Assembly (NCBI RefSeq): GCF_963675165.1
Contig: NC_087385.1
Coordinates: 6,560,912 to 6,624,911 of the forward strand
Length of the DNA: 64,000 nucleotides
DNA from: Halichondria panicea
Taxonomy: Eukaryota; Porifera; Demospongiae; Suberitida; Halichondriidae
Reading direction: 5' to 3'
The notes beneath the pieces are model-generated. The model was given only the letters and a program-made list of their open reading frames with translations. It was not told the origin of the DNA and searched no databases. How positions within the stretch are numbered: position 1 is the stretch's first letter; the number at the start of each line of letters is the position of its first letter. This document shows, piece by piece, positions 7,314 to 60,300 of the stretch. A program made the position numbers and the translations under genes.

Positions 7314-9662
7314 ATGTTGGCAGCTTCAGTCTGTGGAATAACTTTACTCCTCTTACTCTACTGGATATACAAGTAGGAATTTAGCAGTCTCACACATTTT
7401 TAGAGTTATAGAATCAACTTTTTTGCACAGGGTATTCTGGGCACCATTCCAGTTGCTCGCTCAGCTCGGAGTAAAGGGGCCCAAGGCGGAACCTTTTTTC
7501 GGCAACCTTAGACTTAGTCATAAAATGGTAAGAATTAACACACTCCTGTTCATCACCCTCCTCTCACTACATTCTTTAACAGGGATTGATGAAATTCATT
7601 GACTTTCTAGTGGAGAAGTATGGACCAGTATCCGGGTTAGATCAATCACGTTCCAGCCAGTTATTGTTTTTATATTCCTTCTCCTCGATCTTCAGGTACT
7701 ATTTTGGTCGACGACCTATCATAGTAATAAGTGACGTTGAAATGCTGAAACATGTGATGGTGAAAGAGTTCGATTCATTCGTGGATAGACCAGTACGTAG
7801 TTCATCATAGTTGTCCCATTTTTATGCTTATTTGTGCACAATCAATATAGGAAGTAATGTCTGTCATAAGGCCACATAAAGTTCCACTTACTCTGTTTCG
7901 ATCGCGTGGAGAAGCTTGGAAGACTTCCAGACGAACTCTCACCCCCACCTTCTCAGCTGCCAAGATGAAGATGGTGAGGCTGTGTTAACTAAGAGTATCA
8001 AGAAGTGTTGTCTATATAGGCCACTGGTGTAGGGGGAGCTAGTGTACTATACGTCACTGTCTTGTACATGCATGCACAGATGGTTCCCCTGATTGAGAAC
8101 AGTGCTCAGGGTCTACTGAAGAGGATGGGGGAGATTGCCGAGTCTGGACAGAGTGCAGATGTCTTCAAGTAAGTAACAACCGATTTTTCTATATAAATGT
8201 TGGATCACATGCATCTCTATAGGGTATTTGGGTTGTTCACCATGGAGACCATTATATAGCGACAGCATTCGGACGAGTGATTGACATTCAGGGTGGGGAG
8301 AATGATGAGCTGACTAATGCTGCTTCCAACATATTTCAGCAAGCAACAGATTTTAGGGTTGGATATTTGTTTTCATTTGTCGGTAAGCTGTGCTATTCTG
8401 TTTGATGTGAATTATACACTACATGTAGAACATTTTCCGTTTTTGGTACCAATTGTTGAGTATTTGGTATTTAAGTCTCAAAGAGGAAAGAATATAATTG
8501 CTATGCTGGATATTGCGAGAAACCTAGTGAACACGCGTAGACAAGAAGGTCATCAAGGAAAGGTATAATATACACCGATTTAAGACAGAACTTTGTTGAC
8601 TATAGTTGTATGCCCACAGTACAAGGACATGCTTCAGCTGATGATAGACGCTACTGTGGATGAGGAGGGGGAGCAGTCTTGTCCAGTTGGCGGTAAGAAA
8701 CTGACCAACGAGCAGATTGTTGGTCAAAGTACCGGGTTTCTTTTGGCCGGCTATGAGACCACTGCCAACACCCTCTCCTACACGGCCTACTTGCTGGCAC
8801 TCCACCCTGAAGTGCAGGAGAAGCTCCAGAGGGACATAGACAGTTACATGGAGGACAACCCCGTAGGCCTTACAATTATTAGATATACACAGACTATCAT
8901 TTATATTGTTTTGCAAATAGGATGGTGATGTCTATGAAGCAACACAAGGAATTAAATATCTGGAAATGGTGATACAAGAGTCTCTTCGTCTCTACTCTCC
9001 TGCAGCACTGTAAATAGTGCACAGCACTATAATTATGTGTGTGTGATTCGTGTATAGCACTGTACGCCTGTGTACCAAGACCATCACCATCAATGACCTG
9101 ACTATTCCAAAAGGAGTGTCCGTGACCGTTCCTATTGCACACCTGCACAAGGACCCACAGTATTGGGAGGAACCTGACAAGTTCATCCCTGAAAGGTTCA
9201 ATGACATGCTTGTCTATAGGATAGCTCATCCATGGTTGGGTCACTTCTGATCAAAGTTTTTCGTCGTTACACTTTTAAGAAAATCTCGTAATATAAATTC
9301 ATATTTCGTCCCCAATGGCTTGATATATAGGTCAGTTTCAATCGTTACTGACGTTACCTTCTGTAGGTTTACCTCTGAGGAGAAGGCCAAGCGCCCACAG
9401 CTGTGTTACATGCCATTTGGACATGGCCCTCGAGGCTGCATTGGTATGAGGTTTGCTATGCTTGAGGTTAAACTGGCTCTGATTGAAGTGCTGAGGAAGT
9501 TCTCTTTTGTGAGGGCCCCCGACACAGAGGTGTGTTCAGTTGTTGTGTGAGGTGACAATGATATCATCCTTACATGCACTGCAGGTTCCCCTGGAGACTG
9601 TGGTAGGGATCACCATGGCTCCCAAGAATGGAATCTTCGTTAAAGTTATACCTAGAGACTAA
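7314..9662 (+). pseudogene. Cytochrome P450, CYP3-clan-like (copy 2, frameshifted)
   Basis: Tandem paralogue of the gene at 3879 with the same thirteen-exon structure: 7314-7372, 7431-7527, 7583-7635, 7696-7792, 7851-7973, 8080-8168, 8223-8382, 8429-8562, 8620-8862, 8921-9009, 9058-9195, 9367-9529, 9585-9662. The anchor, AGYETT, QESLRLYSPAA and FGHGPRGCIG are all present. Compared with copy 1, exon 7 has two extra bases (TA, near 8255-8258) that give an in-frame TAG directly after METII, so the frame fails although every splice site looks intact. It is a very young pseudogene, a null allele or a sequencing error. The AATAAA found after copy 1 reads AATGAA here. Exons 3, 4, 8 and 10 differ strongly from copy 1, while exons 5, 6, 9 and 11-13 are nearly identical. 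Confidence 0.8.
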
Positions 9663-16457: not shown

Positions 16458-19323
16458 TCATGTGTTGACATCATCATAGATATCACTAGTCTGTCCCAGT
16501 CCATCATCATGCTCGGCAACGGTTGCATAGTTACCACTCATGAGTCTCTCATCCCTCCCCTCCACACTTTTGTACACTGGGGGGAGGGGCTCCGACGTAT
16601 CGTACAGGGGGTTGTCAAACTCGTGCTCTTGTAGAGAGGAGGGGGATGGGGCAGTAGGGAGGGTGTTGGGTTGAGGCTGAGCTGTGTCTGTCTCACACAC
16701 ACCGTACACTGGGTTGTCCATATTATTGACATTGTCAGCTGTTCCTCCTCCACTAACTGCAGGGAGAGCATTAAGTATTAGTTATTGCCCAGCCAGAGTG
16801 CAACATGCCATATATTGCACTGGAGCAATATATGGCATGTTGCACGAGGGCGCCTGCAATAACTAACTTGTTGCCCAATGACGTTAAACTCGTCTGGCTG
16901 GTCATATAAATCGTAATAAAAGACATGTGTTTTGAAGAAATTTAGTGTATTCATCAGTTTTGCTGAATTCCATAGTAAAATTTTTAGGTTTTCTTCCCAC
17001 TAGTAGTTATAAAAGTAGTAGCCTATAAAAGGGACCAAATGAGTTATTGGGTAGGATGGTGGGGCATAAGTCCCAAATGGATATCAGAAATCTACTGCAT
17101 TTACACACAGTGCAAGTGCATATACCGTATATGCTTGATCAGGAGCCGCGACTACTAAATGTTTCATTTTGGTGAAAGAGGAGGCTACAATTCAAGAGGG
17201 GCCACTGTTCAAGAGCGGCCTTTATTAGCTCCAGATAATTTAGTTTGTCATCAAAAGTTGTTTTCACCTGCATAAACTTGAACTCTGCCATGAGAAAGTC
17301 TTTGTGAAGCACTAACAAGCTGCTACTCATAGCTACGTACAATAACATGTAGCTATAGCTGCTAGTAATAATTTTTTTGGCTGCCACGTGCAGAAATGCT
17401 AGAGTAAAGTTCACTGAGGCTACTATTTGAGAGCGGCTACTAAATGTTTCATTTTGCTAGCAAGGGAGGCTACTATTTGAGTGCGGCCTTTATACAAGAG
17501 CGGCCTCTGATCAAGCATATACGGTAATCCAGTGCAATATGCCATTATACTGAGCACTGAAGTGCATATAATCCAGTGCAATATATGGTAGCCATGGCAG
17601 TGATGCAACATGCCATATACTGAGCACTGGATTGCTTTGATCTGCCCACTCACTGGGCAACAAGTTATTATACAGTACACACACACACACAAACACACAC
17701 ACACTGAGGTAGACCTACCGTTGTATTTAGACCACTCTTGTTTGTTCTTGAGGATAATTACTGCGACTATGACAATCACTATGACTACAATCAGCACAAC
17801 GCCAACCAATCCCCCCACCACTCCACCAGCTATAGCAGCTGTTGCATCATCTGATCTAGCCTCTGCAGCAAATACAAAGAAATAAATGGTATTCACAATG
17901 AATATAATAGCTATGTGCTCCCCACTTATTGGTGGAAGGAAGTCAGTGTTTACGTTGTGGTAAGGAAGTTAGTGTTTACCTTGTGTCTCCACACTGCACA
18001 TCTCTCCAGTGAAGCCAGACACACACTCACAACTGAAGGAGTTGACACCATCCACACACACACCATTTCCACTGCAGTTCCTATTCATACAATCATCAAT
18101 GTTGGTCTCACAATCAGCACCAGTGTAGCCAGGATCACATGAGCAGGTGTAGGAATCAAGGCCGTTATTACACGTTCCTCTCTCATTGCAATTTGTGTTG
18201 AAGCAAAAATCTTGACTCTCACAGTTTTCACCAATATAGGGAGGGTTACAGTCGCAAGTGGAACCATTAAATCCATTCACACATGTTCCTCGTTCACTGC
18301 ATGTGACAGCATTGGACTCACAGTGATTGAGTATCTCACAACTGCTTCCATTGTAGAATGGAGCACACAGCACAGTAGCCCTAACAATGATAGCAGCCCT
18401 GTTACCATTAATTGTGCCTCTTGCTGTGTTTCCAACTGGGAGAATAGCATCACTATTTAAACTCACATCACTTCCAAGCCTTTCAATAACATCTGCACCA
18501 TTGCCATCTAAATCAAACACTTGTATATAAAGCTGAGCTCCCTGCAATAACAAGAGATGGTTAATTGAATTACAAACAACAGTGATCAATACCTCCCAGG
18601 CTGTCGATATTCCAGTCAGATTGAACGGATTAGGGAGTCCTAGTACAGTAGGTTGTGAGAATTCAATGGTTGCCCCATCGACAACATTGGTGCTATTTGC
18701 AATAAATCCGGGCTCAGTATTGGGACACACTATAGTAGTAGCCTCAGTGAACCGTGGCCTCAGACAGTAGGTGAAGTAGGTGTCACAGCGCTCCCCAGAG
18801 TTACATGGTTCTACACCATTGAATGGCTGTGGTGAATCACAGCATTGACCATCAGAGCGTGTGTTGGATGGATTACTGTAGGAGACCACCTCCACTTGTA
18901 GCACATAGTCTGCAGACACCAGTACACTGAGCTGCAAGCATTGGGACTCTCAACTGCAGTTATAATAATAGCCTCGTTCCCAGGCCGATTTTTCTCCAAA
19001 AGAACGTGAGGGAAATTTTTTCCCTCTAAGAGAAATCGGCCTGGGAATGAAGCTACTTGACTATCATAATAATAATCATTATAATTATAAACTGGTGAGC
19101 GTTTTAATTTGGCAAATTTCACAGAATTTTATAAACCCTAAATTAAAGTTTTTCCGGTGTACATAACGTCATTGCTGTAGTAGCCACGCCTAAGACGCCA
19201 AATTAAGTCGGTTCAAATGGTTCATTCACCAAATATAATACTCTCCAGTTATACGGTATTAGTACAACTCACCTTCCCCAGCCATAGACACAGGCAGCTC
19301 ATACACACTACAAGGACACTCAT
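16458..19323 (-). CDS. MNNL-EGF transmembrane protein resembling Notch ligands (copy A)
   Basis: Single-pass membrane protein. Five exons (19273-19323, 18593-18931, 17980-18541, 17719-17862, 16458-16756) give 464 residues. Order: signal peptide (MSVLVVCMSCLCLWLG); an MNNL-like domain with CDTYFTYCLRP and PFNLTGISTAWE as in Delta/Jagged N-termini; a VTVLCAPFY-type segment that looks like the first part of a DSL domain but stops after two cysteines; three EGF repeats, the last two being calcium-binding type; a membrane segment (LVGVVLIVVIVIVIVAVI); and a cytoplasmic tail with NPVY and NPLY (NPxY type) and PPVY (PPxY type) motifs. The likely role is cell-surface signalling. The missing DSL makes Notch activation uncertain. 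It heads a tandem array with copies B and C. Confidence 0.85.
16778..16867. mobile_element. Small fold-back MITE in copy A intron
   Basis: It contains a perfect 21-base inverted repeat: GTGCAACATGCCATATATTGC at 16798-16818 and its complement at 16825-16845, with a 6-base loop. Outer ends TTAGTTATTGC and GCAATAACTAA extend the stem. Related fragments lie at 17527-17650. It sits in the intron before the last exon. Confidence 0.75.
17123..17526. mobile_element. MITE with TACCGTATATGCTTGATCAG termini
   Basis: The two ends are inverted copies over about 27 bases (left 17123 onwards, right ending 17526). The interior has internal repeats such as GAGCGGC and CTACTAAATGTTTCATTTTG. About 404 bases, no transposase, within an intron of copy A. 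The end sequence resembles that of the MITE at 6811. Confidence 0.75.
18971..19261. mobile_element. Two MITEs in intron 1 of copy A
   Basis: The first (18971-19053) is a fold-back with arms GCCTCGTTCCCAGGCCGATT and the complementary GGCCTGGGAATGAAGC. The second (about 19083-19261) has degenerate inverted ends, AACTGGTGAGCGTTTTAATT against a right end terminating CTCCAGTTATACGGTA. Both recur at the same place in copy B (21579-21665 and about 21690-21874) and copy C (24221-24307 and about 24340-24503), so they inserted before the tandem duplications. Confidence 0.75.
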
Positions 19324-19892
19324 TCTCAGCAGTATGTAGTATCTGAATACCCAGTAACTATCTCGTTTGTTCAGCTATTTGTTCATGATCTGGAGACCAC
19401 TCTAAGTCTTTCGGAAAGGGATTGATAATAATTATAAGTTTACTATCGAGCTCAGTTACATGTACTTCCTTCCCAGCAGAATGCAATTAGAACCAAAAGT
19501 GCTGCTACACAATGTAAATGTGTGTGGGTGTATCATCAGCTTCAAGTCACTTTGGGATGACTCTCAACTGCTGAGCTACCATGCACTAGCTCACCTTCCC
19601 CAGCCATAGACACAGTCAGCTACACAATACATGGAACAATTATACTGGCTATAAATAATTCAATTATTGAAGACATGTTTTCGGGCTAACATGTTGAGAT
19701 AAAAATAATAATGGTGATGTGATGAGATTATGCAAGTAACATGTGTTGAGGGTTATGTCCTGGTTTGCAGACATACCAAAAGCTAAAAAGTTATACTTGC
19801 TTACATAAACACACACTTAGAACAAGGACATAATTATAATTATTTGATGAATCAAAGTTGCAGGGCTAGTGAAATGTTCCCAGAAGTGATCA
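19324..19892. other. Spacer between copies A and B
   Basis: Upstream region of copy A and 3' flank of copy B. At about 19588-19635 it contains a second, decayed exon-1-like stretch (CACCTTCCCCAGCCATAGAC on the plus strand) whose frame would not continue correctly into exon 2. The same arrangement is repeated upstream of copies B and C. Confidence 0.7.
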
Positions 19893-21936
19893 TCATTGCC
19901 TCATGTTGACATCATTATAGATACCACTAGTCTGTTCTAGTCCATCCTCACGTTCGGCAACGGTTACATAGCTAACATTTACATTTAACATGAGTTTCTC
20001 GTCCACACTTTTGTACACTGGTGGGAGGGGCTCCGACATATCACACAGGGGGTAGTCAAACTCGTGCTCTTGTAGAGAGGAGGGGGGTGGGGCAGTAGCG
20101 AGGGTGTTAGGTTGAGGCTGAGCCATCTCACACACACCGTACACCACGTTGTTCTGACATGGTATGTCATTGTTGGTTGTTCCTCCACTAACTGTAGGGA
20201 GAGCAACCATGCAGTTATTATTATACACGCACACACACGGAGATGGACCTACTGTATCGTGATGACTCTTGCTTGTTCTTCACTATGAGAATGACTATGA
20301 CTACAATCAGCACTGCAATCAGCACAATGACAACCAGTCCCCCAACTACTCCACCAGCTATAGCAGGTGTTGCATCATCTGATCTCATCTCTGCATGAAG
20401 CCAACATGATGAAAAGCCTTATACAGCATTCACTATAATATATATGAAGCTGTCAAGTTAGTGTGGTAAGGAAGTTAGTGTTTACCTTGTGTCTCCACAC
20501 TGCACCTCTCTCCAGTGAAGCCAGACATACACTCACAACTGAAGGAGTTGACACCATCCACACACACACCATTTCCACTGCAGTTCCTATTCACACAATC
20601 ATCAATGTTGGTCTCACAATCAGCACCAGTGTAGCCAGGTTCACAGTCACATACGAACATGTTCACCATGTCAACACAACGACCATTTCCACTGCAATTT
20701 ACGTTAAGACAATCATCAATATCATCCTCACAATCAGTACCAGTATAGCCAGGATCACATGAGCAGGTGTAGGAATTAAGGCCGTTATTACACGTTCCTC
20801 TTTCATTGCAATTTGTGTTGAAGCAAAAATCTTGACTTTCACAGTTTTCACCAATATAGGGAGGGTTACAGTCGCAACTGGAACCATCAAATCCATTCAC
20901 ACATGTTCCTCGTTCACTGCATGTGACAGCATTGGACTCACAGTGATTGAGTATCTCACAACTGCTTCCAGTGTAGAATGGAGCACACAGCACAGTAACA
21001 CTAGCAGTGATAGCAGCCCTGTTACCATTAATTGTGCCTCCTGCTGTGGTTCCAACTGGGAGAATAGTACCATTAATAAAACTCGCATCAAATCTAAACC
21101 TTTCAATAACATCTGCGCCATCGTCATCCAAATCAAACACTTGTATATAAAGCTGAGCTCCCTGCAATAACAAGAGATGGTAAATTGAATTACAAACAAC
21201 AGTGATCAATACCTCCCAGGCTGTCGATATTCCAGTCAGATTGAACGGATTAGGGAGTCCTAGTACGGTAGGTTGTGTGAAATCAATGGTTGCCCCATCA
21301 ACAACATTGGTGCTATTTGCAGTAAATCCGGGCTCAGTATTGGGACACTCTATAGTAGCAGCCTCTGTGAACCGTGGCCTCAGACAGTAGGTGAAGTAGG
21401 TGTCACAGCGCTCCCCTCCGGTACATCCTCCACCATTGCGTGGATCACAACATTGACCATCAAAGCGTGTGTTGAATCCATGATTATAGAAGACCACCTC
21501 CACTTGTAGCACATAGTCTGCAGACACCAGTACACTGAGCTGCAAGCATTGGGAGTATCAACTACAGTTATAATAATAGCCTCGTTCCCAGGCCGATTTT
21601 TCTCTAAAAAGAACGTGAGGGAAATTTTTTTCCCTCTAAGAGAAAAACGGCCTGGGAACAAAGCTACTTGACTATCATAATAATAATCATTATATAAACT
21701 GGTGAGCGTTTTAATTTGGCAATTTGGCAAATTTCACCGAATTTATAACCCCCAAATTAAAGTTTTTCCGGTGTGCATAACGTCATTGCTGTAGTAGCTA
21801 CGCCTAAGACGCCAAATTAAGTCGGTTCAAATGGTTCATTCACCAAATATAATACTCTCCAGTTATACGGTATTGTACAACTCACCTTCCCCAGCCATAG
21901 ACACAGGCAGCTCATACACACTACAAGGACACTCAT
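19893..21936 (-). CDS. MNNL-EGF transmembrane protein resembling Notch ligands (copy B)
   Basis: Tandem paralogue of copy A. Five exons (21886-21936, 21213-21539, 20486-21161, 20253-20390, 19893-20191) join to 496 residues. It has the same signal peptide, MNNL-like domain, truncated DSL-like segment and membrane segment, but four EGF repeats; the extra one (DDCLNVNCSGNGRCVD) sits before the last. The cytoplasmic tail differs from copy A. NPVY is replaced by NVVY and NPLY by YPLC, while PPVY is kept. VSYVTV fits the ITIM pattern (V/I/L/S)xYxx(V/I/L). It is the only copy with four EGF repeats and an unbroken frame. Confidence 0.85.
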
Positions 21937-22534
21937 TCTCAGCAGGATGTAGTATCTGAATACCCAGTAACTATCTCGTTAGTTCAGCTATTTGTTCATG
22001 ATCTGGAGACCACTCTAAGTCTTTCGGAAAGGGATTGAGTTTACTATCGAGCTCAGTTACATCAGAGATAGAGTATATTATCTCTGATTACATGTACTTC
22101 CTTCCCAGCGGAATGCAAAAGTGCTGTTACACAATGTAAAATAATGTGTGTGGGTGTATAATCAGCTTCAAGTCACTTTGGGATGACTCTCAACTGCTGA
22201 GCTATATAAACACCATGCACTAGCTCACCTTCCCCAGCCATAGACACAGTCAGCTACACAATACATGGAACAATTATACTGGCTATAAATAATTCAATTA
22301 TTGAAGACATGTTTTCGGCTAACATGTTGAGAGAAAAATAATAATGGTGATGTGATGAAATAAAAGAGATTATGCAAGTAACATGTGTTGAGGGTTATGC
22401 CCTGGTTTGCGGACATACCAAAAGCTAAAAAGTTATACTTGCTTACATAAACACACACTTAGAGCAAGGACATAATTATAATTATTTGATGAATCAAAGT
22501 TGCAGGGCTAGTGAAATGTGCCCAGAAGTGATCA
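21937..22534. other. Spacer between copies B and C
   Basis: Duplicate of the A-B spacer, including a second decayed exon-1-like stretch at about 22225-22270. No independent gene seen. Confidence 0.7.
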
Positions 22535-24566
22535 TCATTGCCTCATGTTGACATCATCATAGATATCACTAGTCTGTTCTAGTCCATCCTCACGCTCGGC
22601 AACGGTTACATAGCTAACATTTACATTTAACATGAGTTTCTCGTCCACACTTTCGTACGCTGGGGGGAGGGGTTCCGACATATCACACAGGGGGTAGTCA
22701 AACTCGTGCTCTTGTAGAGAGGAGGTGGGTGGGGCAGTAGCGAGGGTGTTGGGTTGAGGCTGAGCCATCTCACACACACCGTACACCACGTTGTTCTGAC
22801 ATGGTATGTCATTGTTGGTTGTTCCTCCAATAACTGTAGGGAGAGCAACCATGCAGTTATTATTATACACACACACAGAGATGGACCTACTGTATCGTGC
22901 TGACTCTTGCTTGTTCTTCACGAGAATGACTATGACTACAATCAGCACTGCAATCAGCACAATGACAACCAGTCCCCCCACCACACCACCAGCTATAGCA
23001 GCTGTTGCATCATCTGATATCATCTCTAAGAATAAAAAGCAAACACGATGAAAGACTTACAAAGCATTCACTATATGAAACTAAATAGGCTGTCAAGTGT
23101 GATAAGGAAGTTAGTGTTTACCTTGTGTCTCCACACTGCACGTCTCTCCAGTGAAGCCAGACACACACTCACAACTGAAGGAGTTGACACCATCCACACA
23201 CACACCATTTCCACTGCAGTTCCTATTCTCACAATCATCAATGTTGGTCTCACAATCAGCACCAGTGTAGCCAGGTTCACAGTCACATAAGAACATGTTC
23301 ACCATGTCAACACAACGACCATTTCCGCTGCAATTTTCGTTAACACAATCATCAATATCATCACAATCAGCACCAGTATAGCCAGGATCACATGAGCAGG
23401 TGTAGGAATCAAGGCCGTTATTACACGTTCCTCTCTTATTGCAATTTGTGTTGAAACAAAAATCTTGACTCTCACAGTTTTCACCAAAGTAGAGAGGGTT
23501 ACAGTCGCAAGTGAAACCATTAAATCCATTCACACATGTTCCTCGTTCACTGCATGTGACAGCATTGGACTCACAGTGATTGAGTATCTCACAACTGCTT
23601 CCAGTGTAGAATGGAGCACAGGACAGTAGCACTAACAGTGATAGCAGCCCTGTTACCAGTAACTGTGCCTCCTGCTGTGGTTCCAACTGGGAGAATAGTA
23701 CGATTAATAATACTCACATCAAATCTAAACCTTTCAATAACATCTGTGCCATCATCATCCAAATCAAACACTTGTATATAAAGCTGAGCTCCCTGCAATA
23801 ACAAGAGATGGTAAATTGAATTACAAACGACAGTGATCAATACCTCCCAGGCTGTCGATATTCCAGTCAGATTGAACGGATTAGGGAGTCCTAGTACAGT
23901 AGGTTGTGAGAAATCAATGGTTGCCCCATCAACAACATTGGTGCTATTTGCAATAAATCCAGGCTCAGTATTGGGACACTCTATAGTAGCAGTCCCTGTG
24001 AACCGTGGCCTCAGACAGTAGGTGAAGTAGGTGTCACAGCGCTCCTCTCCGTTACATGGTGTTGCACCGTTGAATCCCGGTGGTGAATCACAACATCGGT
24101 TGTCTGAGCGTGTGTTGAATCCATGATTGTAGGAGACCACCCTCACTTGTAGCACATAGTCTGCAGACACCAGTACACTGAGCTGCAAGCATTGGGAGTA
24201 TCAACTGCATATATAATATAGCCTCGTTCCCAGGCCGATTTTTCTTTAAAAAGAACGGAAGGGACATTTTTCTCCCTTAGAGAAAAATTGGCCTGGGAAT
24301 GAGGCTATAATCATTGACTATCATAATAATTATTATAACTGGTGAACGTTTTAATTTGGCGATTTGGCAAATTTTACCGAAGATTGCTATTTAAAACCGC
24401 CAAATTACCGGTGGTCATAATATCATTGCTGTAGTAGCCACAAAACACCAAGTCGATTCAAATGGTTCATTCACCAAATACAAATGTTCCAGTTATACGG
24501 TATTGTACAACTCACCTTCCCCAGCCATAGACACAGGCAGCTCATACACAATACAAGGACACTCAT
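22535..24566 (-). pseudogene. MNNL-EGF transmembrane gene (copy C, frameshifted)
   Basis: Five exons at the positions expected from copy B: 24516-24566, 23844-24182, 23122-23792, 22891-23025, 22535-22833. All splice sites, four EGF repeats, the membrane segment and the tail (PPAY, VSYVTV) are recognisable. In exon 3 (near 23620-23630) the segment encoding VTVLCAPFY is two bases shorter than in copy B, which shifts the frame and truncates the protein just before the first EGF repeat. As it stands it would encode a secreted MNNL-only product. It is a young pseudogene, a null allele or a sequence error. Confidence 0.75.
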
Positions 24567-49701: not shown

Positions 49702-50020
49702 ACTTTTAAATTAGCCGTCTTTCAAGAACAACGAACAATAACTATAATAGATTTCATTTGCCTTTTGTAAAACTCTTGTTGGGAGTTGGTATATTGTGAG
49801 GAATTTGCACATGATACATCACATGTTGACAATGATAATAATGATAAACAATGACTTTTTCCTGCGTCCATTATGAAGTGTACTGAATGACATGTTCTTA
49901 TCATAATTGCACCCGAATTAAGAATTAAGGAAATGTGCTAACTCAGTATAATTATGCTAATGGTATTATAGGGTATATAAAGGTACATGAGATAGTAACA
50001 TAATCAGTAGATTATGCAGA
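49702..50020. other. Spacer COG3 / GH16-like gene
   Basis: AT-rich, 319 bases. It holds the COG3 3' end and the promoter of the gene at 50021. A TATATAAA sequence occurs at about 49974-49981. Confidence 0.5.
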
Positions 50021-51544
50021 ATGACTAAACTAAGTGTTCCTCTACTGTCTTTGCTCTCCATTGCACTAGCCTGGTCCTCGGTGACTGCAGGCTCGGGGTG
50101 CAGCTGGACTGGCCGAATGCCTGGCCCCGGAGGAAGTGCTCCCTGTCCCTCACCCACCAACAGTCAAGAATGCCCTAGAACACCTTCTTACGAGGAGATC
50201 GATGCGCAAGGAAAACTTTGGACATGCCCCAGTTACACTAAATCCAATGGAGGACAATATTTTGGCAATTGTACCAAAGGACAAGGCCCCAACCCTCTCT
50301 GCAGTTTTGACGCAACGTCCCCCAAGTTTGGTTGTTGTTGTCCACTAGATGGTTGCTGGACACCTCCGTACTTCAACTGGATTATTGCCACCTGTAAAGC
50401 AAGTGGCTGTGGTGCCTATAAGAACACACCAAGCACTCAGAAGTACAAAGACGCTGGAAGTGAAGTTATCGTAAACTATGCCGCTTCGTATCAATGGAAC
50501 AGTGTGCAAAGATTATGGCAACTTGTGCCAGAATCTTCATTCAACACTGATGGTTCGCAACCACCTTATGACACTTTACGACCCAACGGGGGACTAAAGA
50601 CTCCATGGATGCAGCCGCAGCCTGGAGGTGCAGCGGACTGGTCATGGGGCTATTATCCAGCTGGTGTGAAAGGTGTAGGCCCTCCAGGCATGATGTTTGT
50701 CATCTCAACAGAGAAATCGTTCAACCTTGCCTGGTACATGCTGAATCAAGTCACTCTGGACAAAGGGCCTACTACTGGATATCCGAACAACAAGTGTCCC
50801 TATGGTAATAACAATTGCTGGGCTACAGCGAATTCTGGAGAAATCGACTTTTTGGAGTCTGCTTGGACTGTGAATGCTGGAGCTGCAGATAATTACAGAA
50901 GGCTATACTCTACTCAGTGGAATCAAGTTGGTCGATCGTTTATTGGTGATCAAGGATCGACTTGCAATGCAGACGGTGGATGGTTCAATGATCAAGAGGC
51001 CTCAAACAATTATTTCCTCGGGACTGGCTACAACCAGAGTGTACCTTACATCTTTGTAGCAGTTGTTGACCACATTGGAACATTTATATACCGCATTCCG
51101 GCATCGATGGTGGAGTCAGTCTGGCCTGGTCTCTCTCGTACTACAGCTGCCTGTACTGTTTCTGCCCGCCCTACCCGTCGCCCTGATAACAGCGGCCCCC
51201 CATGTGATGACACTCACCCCTATTGTGCTCTCTTCCTCCCTAACTGTCAGGCATCAGACTGGGGTGGGGCCTCAGCCGGTCGCCAGGGTGGTGCAAACCA
51301 AGGTTGCAAGGTGAATGGTCAACAAGGATGGTGTAAGAACTGGTGGAATCTCCTCGACAACACGGAGCAGTGGCTGTGGCCTGAGAATGGCCATCCAAGT
51401 GTGGTACAATATCAAACGCCAGCTGCTCCTGTCGCTAATCCATGGAATTATGAGATGGAGGCGTGGAAAGTGGACTGGAAAGGACAACCGAAGTACAATG
51501 CAGGATGTTGTGTCAAGAACACTGGACATTGTCCTAAAGTTTAA
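50021..51544 (+). CDS. Intronless secreted protein with GH16-type EIDFLE motif
   Basis: A single 507-residue frame without introns. The start gives a clear signal peptide (LSVPLLSLLSIALAWSSVTA). The mature protein is rich in Cys, Trp, Gly and Pro. SGEIDFLES matches the ExDxxE catalytic pattern of laminarinase-like family GH16, embedded in a region of beta-sandwich character (FNLAWYMLNQVTL, VPYIFVAVVDHIGTFIYRI). Many cysteines (CSFDATSPKFGCCCPLDGCW; GCCVKNTGHC) suggest a disulphide-rich extracellular protein. The rest does not match a family I can name, so substrate and activity are open; a beta-glucan is a guess. Lack of introns beside genes with over twenty exons suggests retroposition or horizontal acquisition. 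Confidence 0.7.
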   Translation: MTKLSVPLLSLLSIALAWSSVTAGSGCSWTGRMPGPGGSAPCPSPTNSQECPRTPSYEEIDAQGKLWTCPSYTKSNGGQYFGNCTKGQGPNPLCSFDATSPKFGCCCPLDGCWTPPYFNWIIATCKASGCGAYKNTPSTQKYKDAGSEVIVNYAASYQWNSVQRLWQLVPESSFNTDGSQPPYDTLRPNGGLKTPWMQPQPGGAADWSWGYYPAGVKGVGPPGMMFVISTEKSFNLAWYMLNQVTLDKGPTTGYPNNKCPYGNNNCWATANSGEIDFLESAWTVNAGAADNYRRLYSTQWNQVGRSFIGDQGSTCNADGGWFNDQEASNNYFLGTGYNQSVPYIFVAVVDHIGTFIYRIPASMVESVWPGLSRTTAACTVSARPTRRPDNSGPPCDDTHPYCALFLPNCQASDWGGASAGRQGGANQGCKVNGQQGWCKNWWNLLDNTEQWLWPENGHPSVVQYQTPAAPVANPWNYEMEAWKVDWKGQPKYNAGCCVKNTGHCPKV

Positions 51545-51793: not shown

Positions 51794-54700
51794 TCAATTA
51801 GTTCCAGTTTTCTGTAACACAATGTGAGCCTTGCCATCTTTGTCGGCTGTCTTGTGTGACACTCCCATCCTCTCAGCAGCTTCATGCACCAGTCGCCTCT
51901 CGTAAGCACTTAGATTAGGGGACAGGTGAAGTTCCCTCTCCTTACCTGAGCAAAACTTCATCACCAAGTCAGTGTACTTGTGAGAGGCTGCAGTAGCTAC
52001 CATCTCTTCGTCTAGCTTGTACTCTTCCAACGATTCAAATAGAAGATTGATACTCATACCGTTGTTTTGTCGATACTCCGATATTTCTCCCCAGAAAGGC
52101 CTCAAGACTTGCTGAATTGCTTCTTTGTTGTTGTTGCCCTCAGGGACAGCAAAACAGAATGTGCATGTCCTCTCATCATTTGTGGTGGGGCAAGGAATGA
52201 CATCAATGCCAGAATCCAGTAGCTTTCGTATGTAAGTAGGCAACTTAGCTTCGATCACAGAGGCTGCTTTCCACAGCAATACTTCATTGCTGCTACTGAC
52301 CTGGATGCTCACTGCAGTGTAAGATGGCTGGGGGATGGGGACTCGTGTTCTTAGCGTGTAGTAGGTCTCTGAGGAGGGGAAATCACTTGACTCGACATGT
52401 CCACAAACTTTAACGAAGAGACTGATAATTTTGTCAATGTATTGACTGGGTACAAAATCGCCAAATAGCTTCTTCCATTTTGGAACTGGTAGCTGGGAGC
52501 AGCTGTTGACAAACACCTTGAATAGTGTGTCTGCGTTCCATTCTGAAGATGGTGAGACTTTGGTACGAGACTTGATAAAATCAGCAAGCAGTTGAATGAT
52601 GTGGAAGGTACGAATGCAATGGTATGCATTTCCTTTGAGGTGGCTGGCTCGTAGGATTTGTACTGTCATTTCCACCACAGCTGCAAAGATTGAACTTGAG
52701 ATAACACCTTGGAGAGCCTCCTTCACATGATGGAGAAACACAGGTCCAGTGAATGCAGTCTTGCTTGCAGCATCTCCAGGTTTGAGCATGCTCTGTAGCT
52801 CAAGTACAGTAAGATTTTCCAGACTGTGAAGAATAGCTTCTTCTTTCACAATCGCAAACACAATGTCGTAATCGATGGGTCCAATTTCATTGAAACTAAT
52901 TCTAACTTTCAGTCTTGGACAGCGGGAGCTTCGGCCAACATGGATGAACTTGATACCACATAACTCTAGCTGTGCTGCTAGTTTGTCAGCGAACTCCATA
53001 GGCGTGTTAGTGGGTGGGGCAAGGAGACAAAGGTCAACATCACTGGAACGTCCTAGAGGAAATGAACCAAATGGGTACGCCAAGAGATTGGGGTCGTCTT
53101 GAAATTCAATGATCTGAGAAAACTGTTGAGCGAGGAAATGGACTCCAACTTGAGCAGCTTGGGTGTAGGTAGCACTTGGCAAGTGGCAGTACGTTGTGAG
53201 GTTGGTCTCCAAACGAGAGTTAGGGGGTTTTGATTTCAGCACCAATTCCTCGAGGTAGTCTGGATCAAGAGAGAGAGGTTTTTCCATGAGCAGCAGCTCC
53301 ACTTGAATGCCTGGCTTGGTCAGCTTAGCAACACGTTTAACTTCTTTCAAATTCTCTTCTTTGTCGTCCCAAAACTTGATTCTGGTCAGATTGGGTAACT
53401 GAGAGAGAAGCTCCTTAATGGCAATTCCTTTGAAGACGTCACCAGACACTCTTAAATCACTAGGCTTCATCAAAACTCGTTCAGGGAAAATGGAAGCATG
53501 CTCAATAATTTTCTTCAATGGTCCTCGTGCTTTATCGATTCGTGATGTCAAAATGAACGTCTTGGAACCAGGTAGTCCTAAATGTGAGCGAAAATCGCCG
53601 ATAGCAGGTCCTGGATAGATGACCAATGGAGGCAACAGTGACTGTGGGCATCCCCACCATCCTTTGTGCGGCCAGTTCTCTCCCGTCTGCTGCTTGTAGA
53701 GTGCTTTTCCCTCCTCTGGGTAGGGTGTGTGGAATAGGGTGCCATCAAAATCAAACAGGAAGAGATCTGTGATGTCACTAGTGCCATTGTGAATGGACAC
53801 CTCCGTCTCCTCAGCTACTGCAAGTGTGGGGTACAACTTCTTTGCCACTTTCTGTTGGAACATTTTCTTCGAGGTTATTTGTAGCTTGGCAAGGTCGGAT
53901 TCACTTATCACTGAACCTTTGTTAGCTTCAGTGTCAGAGAGTTTGTCTGTTTCAAAGAGTTCACGCACAACAATCCCAACAGTTCCTTCCAGAACAATAG
54001 AGTTTTGTTGCTTTGTGGACACTTGAGTCTTGCTGAGCATAGCTGTTGCCATCTTGGGAGCCACACCGTTGTCCGTAGAGATGGTGATGTGTGGGATGTC
54101 GGCATTGCATTGTACCTCACTAGGGACTTGCACACGGACAGCTTGCACACCACTGCTTGACTCGTGACCTGTAACACGTATCTTTACTTTCTGACCAATT
54201 TTTGTGGCTGTGATAGACTCAGTAGAAGGCTTGTAACAGAGGGTCACATGATCGGCATGCACATTTGCAAAGGCTGGTGGGTAGGTAGATACTAGTAGCC
54301 ATTGTGACTCAGTGGTCAAAAAGATGCCCGTGTATATGGCAAAATGAGCGGAGAATGAATCCAATAATTGAGATTGGTATTTTCCTAGTTGAACAATCCA
54401 CTCCAATGAGAAATCAGGCCTGCTGGTCGAGCCAGTTGGGTAGGAAAGCCGGGGGGACACACGAAGAGCATTGTCATCATTCTCCCATCTTTGTACCGTG
54501 TTTTTGACTGCAGTGCTGTCAATGTTGTGAGCGTTTCGACTTTGGAACTTGCCAGCAATGAAATCGGTTGGACACGGAATCTCAACAATGTGCATGTCTA
54601 GATGCAGGATCTCACACAAGTAGGTGTATATCTGATACTCCCACACTTGGGAATTAGTGTTGTCCACAATCACAAACTTGAATTCGATGTTGGAAACGCA

Positions 54701-56801
54701 TTTCAGGAATTTCTGAAGGCAATATGCGTGGGCTTCGGGAACTAACTCAGGAACAAATGTGTATGTACCATCTTTGATGAAGTATTCATCAGCACTGCAA
54801 ACAGCAAACTCAGAAGGGTTGCTGAGGTATTCAGAGGAGTTGGTGGCTAGGAACGACTTGCCTGATCCGGGAACGCCACGAAGTATAACAACAGCTGTTT
54901 CTTGTGAGCTAGTGAGACGAGTATTCGTGAGAAGTTTGAGGGCTCGTTCGAATTTCCTTTCATCAGGTAAATCCATGGAAGAGGAAGAAACAACATTCAC
55001 AATTGTAGCCTTTTCTCTTTCTGAAAGTTTTCCGTGTGTGGATAGCGCTTCAACTGCACACAAGAGTGAGGGTCGAAGGTCAGGGGTCAGATGTACCAGT
55101 GAATTTGATATGGTGTGTAGTCGTGGAAAGAAACCATCTTCTTGCTTTGGACCAGTCAAGGAGCATAGATCGATTGTCTGAAGTTGTTGTCTTCCCATGA
55201 TATTGTTCTGGAACTTGGAGTACAAGGCCTGGCCAGCAATTCTTACGCTGAGCTCTTTTTGCATGGGTCTTGACATCTTGACAATTGTCACGTGAGGTGT
55301 GTATTCGGAGTGGTTGCCAGGGGTTTTAACACCAGCAGCTTGAAGCCGCTCAATTAGAAGATAGACAAGCTTAGAGAGAGCAGCATTCGGGGCAACCTTG
55401 ACGTATACCAATCTGTCTTTGAAGTTGTCGACGCCGTTTAGCAGTAAGTGGACATTTTGAGGCAGCATGAGTAGAAAATGTGGCTTCATCTTCTCTAGAG
55501 CAGCTTTGGCTTTGCTGATCTGATCATCGTTCTCCAGTCGGACCATACACAGAGTGATGTGGAAAGCAGTAGGAGACACAAGTCCCTCAGACAGTTGTGG
55601 TGACACGGTTAGAATGTGGTCTTGAACAATGCGTATATTAGCCACAACTTCTTGATCGCATATTTGTATGCACAGGAAATGAGTTGGTCTGTCTTTGTCA
55701 TCATAGTGCTTCTTGTTTGGACTTAACTCGAGATTTTGTGCTGGCTGCTTTTGATCACCTGCTTCAGTAGTGGGTACCATAGCCTGGACAATTTCATCAA
55801 TGGTTGAGCCACCCCGTGATCCAAAAAAGTTGTCCATCTGTGAGCGCTTGTCCCAGACAATTTGATCTCGATATTTGAAGTATTGGATCCGGTGCTTGGG
55901 AATGGAGAGGACACTTGGTCCAACTGAAGCAATGTCTTCCCAACTGAATGCAGCAAATGGCTTCTCAATAATCCCCACAAATCTGTCAAGGTACCCAATA
56001 CAAAACTGTTCTGTCGGTAGGTCGCCATCCCATAATATTCGTGAGATTACATCAGTAGCCGATCGCATTGAAGATTTCTTTTCGCTTTCTTCCCCTTCTT
56101 GAGTAGTTATAGTTGTTGGCTTTGTTTTGCCGTTTTTCTCGTCTACTTTACTGCCAGTTTGTTTCTGCTTTGATCCAATGGTTGCCATAGCACCCTCAGC
56201 CATAGCGGGGGAGTGTCCTTTTGTGGGGTGGAGTAGTTTGCATTTATCACCAAATTTGCATTTCCCTTGCTTGAAGAACTTGCATACAGTGGCGTCACTG
56301 CTCCGTATTGGGGAGACATCACGTGATCCTCGGCCCCTGTCATTTGGGTGGTTCTGTAGCCATTCTCGAGTGGCTTCGATCATCTGGAACAGCATAGGAG
56401 CACCAATGGAGTCCTTAGAAACATCGTTAATGCATTGTTCGAGCTCGGGGAAGCTGTACTGCAGAGACAGCTGGACCTCAGGAGGGGAGTTGGGATAGTT
56501 ACCTGGAAAATGAACTACATGTACATTAATGTCTTCACACAATTATGCAAAAGATGTACATTGATGTCTTCACACAATTATGCAAAAGATGTACATTGTA
56601 CAATGATAATTACGGTGGTTGGAAGCCAATAATGTTTATATGATTCAGTTGTTACAGTTATCTACCTGGTAGTTTAAGAGTAGCCATGATTTTCTTCTTC
56701 ATGAAAATGTTCACAAGCATTTGCCCATCTCTCCCAACGGAATAGGAAACATCACGACCAAAAATGGCTGTTAGAGACTCCAGCTCTTCATTCAACTCCA
56801 T
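51794..56801 (-). CDS. Swiss-Army-Knife-type RNA repair polyprotein
   Basis: Two exons, 56666-56801 and 51794-56502, encode 1,614 residues; the second exon is 4.7 kb without an intron. Regions in order: RWD domain (about 1-98, YPNSPPEV); CCCH zinc finger (C119, C127, C133, H137); MJ1316-like RNA-end domain (190-270); 2H phosphoesterase-like (318-457, HITL 360, HVTI 449); P-loop kinase (GVPGSGKS 588-595); second 2H-like region (HVTL 797, HITI 850); HAD phosphatase (DFDGTLF 963, FWDDKEEN 1089); nucleotidyltransferase (GSFPLGRSSDVDL 1191, D1200, D1202, D1256); R3H domain (1554-1611, R1581, H1585). This is the logic of end healing: cyclic-phosphate opening, 5' phosphorylation, 3' phosphate removal and nucleotide addition on one chain. 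RNA repair is inference from the domains. Confidence 0.88.
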
Positions 56802-57336: not shown

Positions 57337-60300
57337 ATGTCTGCTATTGTGAGAACGGTCCTAAGGCGGAGGGGATGTTATAGGAGGCCTATCAGTGCTG
57401 GTTTGCTGAGCAGGAGAGGATATGCAACCAAGGATAGGAAGGTACAGCCAGTCTAGCCATGCCAAGTCTGTGTCTGTACTAGACTACCTCACTCTTATAA
57501 TACAGACATTTGACAAGATCCTGATTGCAAACCGTGGAGAAATTGCTTGCAGGGTGAGTTCCACTGTGACACTTAGATCGTGATAATAGGCGATCCTGGA
57601 CCTATAGCACCATTTGTTTAAAGCCTTGCAGTTATGTGTAGTACCATCTTAAATGCGGTGTATGTGCATTCTGTAGGTGATGAAGACGTGTAAGGAGATG
57701 GGGATAAAGTCTGTGGCCATTTACAGTGACGCTGATGCTCAGGCCGTGAGTAGTTGGTGTTGGTGTTATTATTGATATACACTGTATTCCTCACTTCTCT
57801 CTCAGCTGCATGTGCGTATGGCTGATGAGGCGGTGAGGGTGGGCCCAGCCACAGCCACTGAGAGTTATCTCAACATGCCTGCCATTCTCGAGGCAGTGGA
57901 GACCACTGGAGCACAAGCCGTAAGTCTAGCATCTGTGCTGGCATGGAGACTTTAACTGATAACTATGTTCCAAGCACTTTCAACACTTGTGCAACTAGGT
58001 CTGCAGTCTCTCCATCTACTGTTACAATAAACGTGTGTTCTACATTGAGCATCTTTGAACGGCCATAACTTTGGTTCCGTTGGTCCAATAACGTTAATTT
58101 TACGATTTTCTAAAACCTTAGAGAGAGGCCTTTCAGATTATGTGTTAAAATCAGAAGTCTATTTTGGGCCTGTTTTTGATGAAATACCATGGGGCCATGG
58201 TCTTTTTCTGGAAATATAAAATTATGGCCCGTTCCAAATTTGGGATTTAAGCGAACCATCTGAAAGAGCTCCTTCTAAGCTTTCATAAAATCATAAAATC
58301 ATTGAATTTGGACCATCAGAACTCTAGGTACAGAGCCAACTCCAGTACTTCAAAATGAAGGGGACCTATATACTATTCCACACAGTGCCTGTTGCTTGGG
58401 TTAGCAGGTCACTTCTTAATGCTTGGATGGCTCTTTCATTCCCCTCCAGGTGCACCCAGGCTACGGGTTCTTCTCAGAGAATAGCGTCTTCTTTGATGAG
58501 TTGGAGCATCGAGGAGTCACATTCATTGGTCCGGCCACACACGCCCTCTCTGTCATGGGGGACAAGTTAGAGAGCAAGAGGACGGCCATGGAGGCACAAG
58601 TGAACACTGTCCCTGGGTTTGATGGCATCGTAAAGGACGCAGACGAGGCTATCAAACTAGCCAATGAGATTGGTGAGGAGAATGAAGTATGTAGTGGGGT
58701 ATTGTATCACACTCTTAGTGCAGTGCTTGTTAGAACAGACCTTTATTGGAGTTTTGCATCTTTGTAAAGAGACAGTTTTAAGCCTCCTAATGTCGTCCAG
58801 TGTATTGTGTGATAGTAGCCATGGTACTAGGTTACTCAGTGATAGTAGCCATGGTACTGCAGGTTACCCGGTGATGCTGAAGGCAAGTGCAGGAGGTGGG
58901 GGGAAGGGAATGAGGATATCTTGGAATGATGAGGAGACACGACAAGGATTCCACTTAGCAACAGAGGAGGCCAAGTCAGCTGTCAAGGACGACAGACTGC
59001 TCATAGAGAAATTTGTGGACAAGTCTCGTCATATTGAGATTCAGGTGAGTGTGATTGTGTGTGTGTGTGCTCTGACATTCAGTAGGCCCTCTAGAGTTCA
59101 TTCTGTTGAGCTCTGACATTCAGTAGGCCCTCTAGAGTTCATTCTGTTGAGCTCTGACATTCAGTAGGCCCTCTAGAGTTCGATCTGTTGTGCTCTGACA
59201 TTCAGTAGGCCCTCTAGAGTTCATTCTGTTGTGCTCTGACATTCAGTAGGCCCTCTAGAGTTCATTCTGTTGTGCTCTGACATTCAGTAGGCCCTCTAGA
59301 GTTCATTCTGTGTTACAGAATCCTTTCATATAGTATATACGTGTATCAATGATATTTATTTCGTACAGGTTTTGGGAGATAAACACGGGAATGCGGTGAG
59401 TTAAGTGTATGAGTGGTTGTATTTATATAATATCTCATTACCACAGATTCATTTGAATGAGAGAGAGTGCTCCATTCAGCGCAGGAACCAGAAGGTTGTT
59501 GAAGAGGCGCCAAGGTGAGACACGGTAGAGACCTTACAACATAGCTATGACATCACTTGTTGTCGTCTCTTCCAGCACGTTTATTGACCCTGGGACCCGG
59601 AGTGCTATGGGGGCACAGGCCGTGGCTCTGGCCAAGGCTGTGGATTACAGCTCAGCAGGTCAGCATGTCCATGAGTGTGCTTATAGGGTGGAGAATTAAT
59701 GCTGAAAATATTAACTAGCCTGTTCTTGCTTGACTGTTTACGTTATTATTAAATTCTTTGAAACCATGTACTCAATATTGCAGTTGTTATGGAAAGTAAT
59801 ACGAAGTGTACTTAATTTATATAGTTTGTTTCTCTGTGTGCAGGGACTGTTGAGTTTCTGGTTGACTCTAGTAAAAACTTCTACTTCCTGGAGATGAACA
59901 CTCGCCTGCAAGTGGAGCACCCCATCACTGAGCTCACTACTGGGGTGGACATTGTCGAGCAGATGATCTACTCAGCAGCAGGTGACCATCATCACGCCCT
60001 CAGGCACTTGTGTAGTTCAGTCGATTTGAGAGAAATTTACAGTGTGTGTTGATTTATGAGGATTGTTGATTTTATATTTTCTCCTCCATGTAGGCCACCC
60101 CCTGTCTCTGACACAGGATGATATTGGAGTGAATGGATGGGCCATCGAGGCGAGGGTTTATGCTGAGGTCAGCAACACAGCCAGCTGCACACACTAAACT
60201 GTTAACTGTCACCACTCTCTCTCTCTCTGTAGGACCCAGTCCGGTTCTTGCCCTCCATTGGCTACCTCTCCACCTACATTGAGCCTACGGAAAGACCAGG

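Follow-up and report, generated by a model that had tools for sequence, protein, structure and literature searches.

RNA-repair proteins of the kind described here are already known, and the Pfam entries HAD_SAK_1 and MJ1316 both name 'Swiss Army Knife RNA repair proteins'. Fusions of MJ1316 to RNA-repair domains are reportedly treated by Burroughs and Aravind (2016). An excerpt of PMC6514570, in which that work is cited, describes diverse fusions of this type across eukaryotes. The gene analysed here belongs to the sponge Halichondria panicea and lies on the minus strand at positions 51794–56801 of a 64,000-nucleotide stretch of contig NC_087385.1 (positions 6,560,912 to 6,624,911, assembly GCF_963675165.1), which is referred to as the window. 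Its product is a chain of 1614 amino acids with the domain order RWD, CCCH, MJ1316, 2H phosphoesterase (AKAP7 type), kinase (AAA_33), second 2H (tRNA_lig_CPD), HAD phosphatase (HAD_SAK_1), nucleotidyltransferase (NTase), an unnamed conserved stretch and R3H. Judged from its sequence, this is a real and conserved multi-enzyme RNA-healing protein that is probably active. We consider it probable that it heals RNA breaks with 2',3'-cyclic phosphate and 5'-OH ends and leaves their sealing to a separate ligase. To the known kind, this analysis adds candidate ligase partners, a likely class for the NTase, a link to the animal gene LENG9 and a phage-like parallel. No paper on the sponge protein was found by title or abstract opening in a search that many journals lay outside.

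The sponge protein resembles Swiss Army Knife proteins in its HAD_SAK_1-type domain and in carrying several RNA-end enzymes (MJ1316, 2H, kinase, NTase) on one chain, whereas its front RWD-CCCH part, the second 2H domain in mid-chain and the terminal R3H domain set it apart. With fungal Trl1, lancelet PNK/CPDase and vertebrate CNPase it shares a P-loop kinase or kinase-like domain that precedes a 2H cyclic phosphodiesterase. However, Trl1 has its ligase on the same chain, while a Pfam scan of the sponge chain found no ATP-dependent ligase family. HAD, NTase and MJ1316 domains are not known to be part of Trl1, lancelet PNK/CPDase or CNPase. Trl1-type healing leaves a 2'-phosphate, which the HAD domain of the sponge protein could take off. 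T4 Pnkp and bacterial Pnkp1 likewise combine an RNA kinase with a phosphatase and leave sealing of the healed ends to a ligase on another chain, but they have far fewer domains, and their phosphatase is of a different family.

The gene consists of two exons and its reading frame has no internal stop. Exon 1 (56666–56801) holds the start codon and the initial part of the RWD domain, and exon 2 (51794–56502) the rest of the protein including the stop codon; the intron between them (56503–56665) is 163 nt long and has GT...AG borders. The splice is supported because the RWD domain scores higher on the spliced sequence: the Pfam scan of the first 143 amino acids of the spliced protein yielded 36.7 bits (E 5e-9), compared to 22.6 bits on the exon-2 frame alone, just below the cut-off of 22.8. 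The label of the EukProt entry P0074 looks like that of a transcript assembly whose frame is complete, which is consistent with the whole chain being on one mRNA. A bacterial contaminant was ruled out by the presence of a spliced gene on a 7-Mb contig. The genome assembly comprises 131 Mb in 39 contigs; its size and the 163-nt intron are those of a eukaryote. The single MJ1316 match found in the assembly is the repair gene; the enzyme is apparently single-copy.

The RWD domain (amino acids 2–94; 56357–56798, split by the intron) is followed by the CCCH zinc finger (118–138; 56225–56287), which was matched by zf-CCCH_4 with 29–33 bits and, on the exon-2 frame, by zf-CCCH with 24 bits, above the Pfam cut-off. 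For the MJ1316 domain (191–264; 55847–56068) a score of 88.1 bits was obtained (E 6e-25). The first 2H phosphoesterase (318–508; 55115–55687; HIT 360–362, HVT 449–451) is of the AKAP7/LENG9 type, with 120 bits for AKAP7_NLS and E 1.4e-34 for the AKAP18 structure. On the exon-2 frame, 2_5_RNA_ligase2 is also above the cut-off (30 bits). The P-loop polynucleotide-kinase-like domain (583–717; 54488–54892), with the Walker A motif GVPGSGKS, matched AAA_33 (32.3 bits) and the Pnkp1 structure (E 3e-5). PNKP chains were also present among the structures matched by a full-length profile, aligned via the kinase part. At the other end of the chain, the R3H domain (1559–1610; 51809–51964) scored 37.2 bits and matched the SMUBP-2 structure with E 9e-10.

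The domains in between were recognised through the family. The second 2H phosphoesterase (767–895; 53954–54340; HVT 797–799, HIT 850–852) is Trl1-CPD-like; the family consensus matched tRNA_lig_CPD with 24.4 bits, and E<=0.05 was reached in 23 of the 31 scanned members. The HAD phosphatase (955–1125; 53264–53776) has the motifs DFDGT (963–967) and DD (1091–1092), and the motif residues D963, D965, T1031, K1058 and D1092 are all present in the window protein. Its assignment to HAD_SAK_1 is based on the family consensus (39.1 bits, above the cut-off) and on E<=0.05 in 28 of the 31 scanned members. For the NTase (1145–1412; 52403–53206; GS 1191–1192, D1200, D1202, D1258), structure matches, each of them weak, point to the polymerase-beta type. 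The conserved stretch after it (1440–1525; 52064–52321) occurs in 73 other rows of the alignment described below with a median identity of 43%, and no Pfam family scored above the cut-off for it.

Relatives were searched by scoring the 7999 candidates sharing most words, and 78 proteins were returned. The resulting alignment has 77 rows, namely the window protein and 76 relatives; P0002, identical to the window protein, and P0079, matching 6% of the query, were omitted. Derived alignments contained the window piece with 69 of the 76 relatives (A1, A2), 31 rows (A3), or the window piece with nine of 12 NTase pieces (A4, 10 rows). In their five catalytic domains, the relatives are 25–88% identical to the window protein. 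With T/S, K/R and D/E permitted at some positions, intact catalytic sets were counted for the first 2H domain in 77 of 77 rows, the kinase in 77, the second 2H domain in 76, and the HAD and NTase domains in 74 each; both HxT/S motifs were present in all 77 rows for the first and in 76 for the second 2H domain. Three rows end early (P0075, P0077, P0070), and the GS motif and three carboxylates of the NTase (G1191, S1192, D1200, D1202, D1258) are kept in 74 of the 74 rows that hold this region. The exceptions for the HAD set are two rows ending early and P0076, in which Q replaces the lysine. This EukProt entry, with a 'scpid' identifier, is presumably from Sycon. The second 2H domain is missing in one full-length row, the green alga Cymbomonas tetramitiformis (P0078), which shares MJ1316, 2H, kinase, HAD and NTase with the sponge protein in the same order and with intact active-site motifs, but whose Pfam list lacks RWD and R3H. 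Fragments from Geodia barretti are named LENG9 (partial; P0075) and N4BP2L2 (P0201). A search with the HAD-NTase-R3H piece, again among 7999 candidates, gave at least 10 proteins, with Geodia as the sole named organism.

Chance occurrence of the motifs was rejected, since full catalytic sets are conserved in 74 to 77 of the 77 rows. An earlier sequence-only reading of this DNA had listed nine regions (all of those named above except the unnamed stretch) and had described their catalytic motifs as intact. The list is supported by Pfam, structure and family-profile matches, the motifs that were quoted are present, and the catalytic residues align with those of the relatives in the row numbers just given.

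The 10-row NTase profile, compared with solved structures, matched 18 distinct sequences at E<=10, and all 18 are pol-beta NTases. They represent about seven different proteins, among them MntA, canonical poly(A) polymerases, URT1 and Cid1, and each match is weak (E 0.0044 to 0.83). In the alignment to poly(A) polymerase gamma, the first two Asp residues and the third Asp were paired. A 74-row NTase profile was also run on the frames of four genome loci preselected for poly(A) polymerase/TENT matches; three TENT frames and the poly(A) polymerase frame ranked at the top, with E values (5.5e-6 to 0.02) that hold for this tiny set. MTPAP-like_central was matched in three of the 10 NTase pieces (best E 3e-4), and the window piece gave E 0.069, below the cut-off. 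By these comparisons, the NTase appears to group weakly, and consistently, with poly(A)/TENT-type polymerases, so that restoring or tailing of 3' ends would be its expected job. Such an enzyme might also add A or U to the healed 3'-OH in order to mark cleaved RNA, which would then enter decay without ligation. While the matches to canonical poly(A) polymerases, URT1 and Cid1, the top rank of the TENT and poly(A) polymerase frames among the open reading frames of the four scanned loci and the lack of a ligase domain in the Pfam scan fit this idea, a 5'-kinase would be useless for 3' tailing and the genome has four ATP-dependent RNA-ligase loci. We regard marking for decay as unlikely.

An OAS-like NTase was rejected, as no OAS was found among the 18 structure matches. 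A turnover of 2',5'-oligoadenylate or cyclic nucleotides, in which the AKAP7-type 2H domain would degrade 2',5'-oligoadenylate-like signals and the other domains would process the products, appears very unlikely. AKAP7/AKAP18 is nearest to the first 2H domain, and AKAP7 has 2',5'-phosphodiesterase activity; however, MJ1316, the kinase, the Trl1-type 2H domain and the HAD domain indicate polynucleotide ends, and a genome search with OAS1_C, performed without a positive control, gave no match.

Healing of RNA breaks for a separate ligase is the interpretation that we prefer. From the gene, its domains, the conserved active-site motifs and the ligase loci, we infer the reactions, their order, the substrate and the partner as follows. 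The RWD, CCCH and R3H domains would probably bind partners and RNA, as suggested by their families, and MJ1316 is predicted, from the name of its family, to recognise cyclic RNA ends, probably the 2',3'-cyclic phosphate that metal-independent RNases generate. The two 2H domains could open the cyclic phosphate, the HAD domain could take off the leftover phosphate and the kinase could phosphorylate the 5'-OH. The product would have a 3'-OH and a 5'-phosphate, as ATP-dependent RNA ligases require. The NTase, which also depends on a 3'-OH, might replace missing 3' nucleotides or extend the end with a tail ahead of sealing by a separate enzyme, most plausibly a PF09414 ligase of the same genome. 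By analogy only, the substrate would most likely be tRNA. The scheme fits a known end-healing logic, which is also set out in a survey of jumbo phages (PMC7824862): ATP-grasp ligases need a 5'-phosphate and a 3'-OH, so that kinases and phosphoesterases accompany them, while linear phosphates are cleared by 'Swiss-army-knife' HADs and nucleotides that have been lost are put back by NTases. According to an excerpt of PMC5434554, yeast Trl1 and lancelet PNK/CPDase have both healing activities in a kinase and 2H pair; in the lancelet, an excerpt of PMC3400036 describes a stand-alone ligase, with the healing modules on another chain.

Candidate sealing enzymes are present in the same genome. Four loci match the RNA-ligase family PF09414, with one match running through stop codons, as it would over an intron, and the ligase genes are spread across several frames, as spliced genes are. 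Two of these ligases form a tandem Rnl2/REL-like pair on contig C8 (L020 2991–6894), with PF09414 and T4_Rnl2_C above the cut-off, and one of the pair matches an RNA editing ligase structure (E 1.3e-5). Both copies feature EKVHGAN, YGELFGG, FMA(F/Y)DIA, EGIVVKP and then a KRK motif, in this order, and a further locus (L018) has corresponding motifs; we take these strings to be ligase motifs. RtcB exons were found at two places on contig C13 (2032086–2035240 and 2049384–2052538), 17.3 kb apart and with identical scores, which reflects either a recent duplication or an assembly artefact. Healing without sealing, as proposed in the sequence-only reading, agrees with the lack of a ligase family on the chain. 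That reading had left sealing to a partner or, alternatively, had the NTase tag the ends. The first option has gained candidates in the RtcB exons and the PF09414 loci; as to the second, a weakly poly(A)/TENT-type enzyme would be expected to restore ends or to tail them.

The same activities could instead serve housekeeping splicing of the yeast type, acting on tRNA exons or XBP1-type mRNA and not on damaged RNA, given that yeast Trl1 and the lancelet apply a kinase and a cyclic phosphodiesterase to tRNA ends (excerpts of PMC5434554 and PMC3400036). We judge this highly improbable: the genome has RtcB exons, an excerpt of PMC13247085 gives RTCB as the animal pre-tRNA splicing ligase, and splicing has no need for an NTase or MJ1316.

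A parallel to the sponge protein was found in phage-like records. In an excerpt of PMC7765460, a jumbo-phage kinase open reading frame is listed with 'HAD domain in Swiss Army Knife RNA repair proteins'. Most of the 80 viral (of 489) and 80 prokaryote (of 382) relatives match the kinase region only. Two phage records were matched by the HAD piece (E 5e-9 and 7e-5) and 14 by the piece of the second 2H domain (E 3e-5 to 9e-3), while a scan of viral contigs for the NTase profile gave 51 pattern hits and zero relatives. Two records were chosen for their matches beyond the kinase region; their collection and gene types suggest that both contigs are phages. In IMGVR_UViG_3300042350_004528 (298,833 bases), one frame (L097 1420–3501) holds a CPD-like 2H domain (18.1 bits, below the cut-off), a CCA-adding enzyme and HAD_SAK_1 (32.4 bits), and its HAD domain is 33% identical to that of the sponge over 153 positions. 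No MJ1316 or kinase was found in the 3.5-kb stretch scanned, which ends inside the frame. An AAA_33 kinase (252543–252848) and a PF09414 ligase (248197–248895), on the other strand, lie within about 13 kb of it. The second record (164,603 bases) contains a frame with the 2H-like motifs HHCTL and PHVTL (L060 2947–3414) near an AAA_33 kinase. The sponge protein may have a role against ribotoxins or in antiviral defence, as had been suggested earlier; the phage-like parallel is the sole hint related to conflict.

Several results weigh against the proposed scheme. In the Halichondria protein itself, tRNA_lig_CPD reached 17.4 bits, below the cut-off of 23, and HAD_SAK_1 13.2 bits compared to a cut-off of 25.6 (E 0.077), which places this protein outside the 28 matching members. 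For the NTase region, no Pfam model scored above the cut-off in the protein, the consensus or the pieces scanned, and no structure matching the HAD or NTase part was among the best 60 of the 81 matches of the full-length 70-row profile at E<=1. The domains named in the sequence-only reading are thus above the cut-off in the protein itself for AKAP7_NLS, MJ1316, R3H, AAA_33, CCCH and the spliced RWD, but below it for HAD_SAK_1, the second 2H domain and the NTase; the name Swiss Army Knife is retained through the family consensus and members. The ligases are tied to the repair protein solely by their occurrence in one genome. Their motif strings, compared at three of the four PF09414 loci and in order at each of these, were picked after the frames had been inspected, and the L018 frame has no structure match at E<=0.1. 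Models for RLIG1 (PF17720) and Rnl1-type ligases (PF09511) had no genome match in a search without a positive control. In addition, lancelet PNK/CPDase favours DNA over RNA, according to an excerpt of PMC5434554. The NTase of the larger phage-like record differs from that of the sponge in being of the CCA-adding type and in its position between the 2H and HAD domains, and the 164,603-base record gave no ligase match.

The repair gene lies tail-to-tail with a frame of 517 amino acids on the plus strand (49991–51541), whose product looks cysteine-rich and secreted by eye; a Pfam scan of this frame found no family at E<=0.001. Upstream of the repair gene and on the opposite strand, an N-terminal exon of a biotin carboxylase is located at 58420–58764 (+). 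Elsewhere in the window, a row of several similar frames (17972–24200, minus strand) is likely a tandem family of EGF-repeat proteins, as the one that was scanned (20478–21557) has EGF repeats. Two plus-strand frames about 3 kb apart (5427–5849 and 8584–8925) are very similar in the compared parts, and the first of them matches cytochrome P450.

The front part of the sponge protein connects it to LENG9 (leukocyte receptor cluster member 9), known from eumetazoans. With the CCCH-MJ1316-2H piece as query, 292 proteins were matched, and the best 120 of them, considered here as the short proteins, are 371–623 amino acids long. Those with a name are mostly LENG9 or LENG9-like and come from molluscs, amphibians, reptiles, a hemichordate, a sea urchin and others; human LENG9 is not among these 120 of the 292. 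In an alignment count, both HxT/S motifs are kept in 120 of 120. The short proteins have an RWD (many mollusc entries) or CCCH domain (many vertebrate entries), then MJ1316 and an AKAP7-type 2H domain, in the same order as in the sponge protein. However, they are without kinase, HAD or R3H in the precomputed Pfam list, while the sponge protein continues beyond the 2H domain to 1614 amino acids. LENG9 matches the N-terminal third of the sponge protein and is perhaps a shortened form of it.

A tree was calculated from 64 rows, comprising 29 of the 77 long proteins and 35 of the 120 short ones. On one side (80/0), 28 of the 29 long rows cluster with two short ones (P0080, P0081), while the other side (94/70) comprises the remaining 33 short rows; if P0081 is left aside, the long side reaches 99/98. 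When the tree is rooted on the green alga, the long/short label needs three changes. Taken with the long form of the alga, this tree favours shortening in eumetazoans without proving it, as the alga that serves as root sits on a single, very long branch with an unusual composition and P0081 is short. At somewhat less than an even chance, we suggest that the all-in-one form is ancestral. Sponges would have retained it and, in combination with Rnl2-type ligases, would possess a complete heal-and-seal pathway in addition to RtcB; in the remaining animals, the catalytic two thirds would have been lost and the damage-recognising front would have survived as LENG9.

RLIG1 is a recently found animal 5'-3' RNA ligase, for which excerpts of PMC11494293 and PMC13244148 give CLP1 and ANGEL2 as proposed, unsettled healing partners. 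In the surveyed LENG9 literature, biochemistry was not a subject of titles or abstract openings. If the ancestral scenario is true, LENG9 would sense cleaved RNA or hydrolyse its cyclic ends, and might pass these ends on to ANGEL2, CLP1 and RLIG1. A LENG9 front joined to a kinase, a phosphatase and an NTase, in a genome with Rnl2-like ligases, ties LENG9 to RLIG1-type ligation and its healing partners, and suggests a testable role in RNA repair for this little-studied animal gene.

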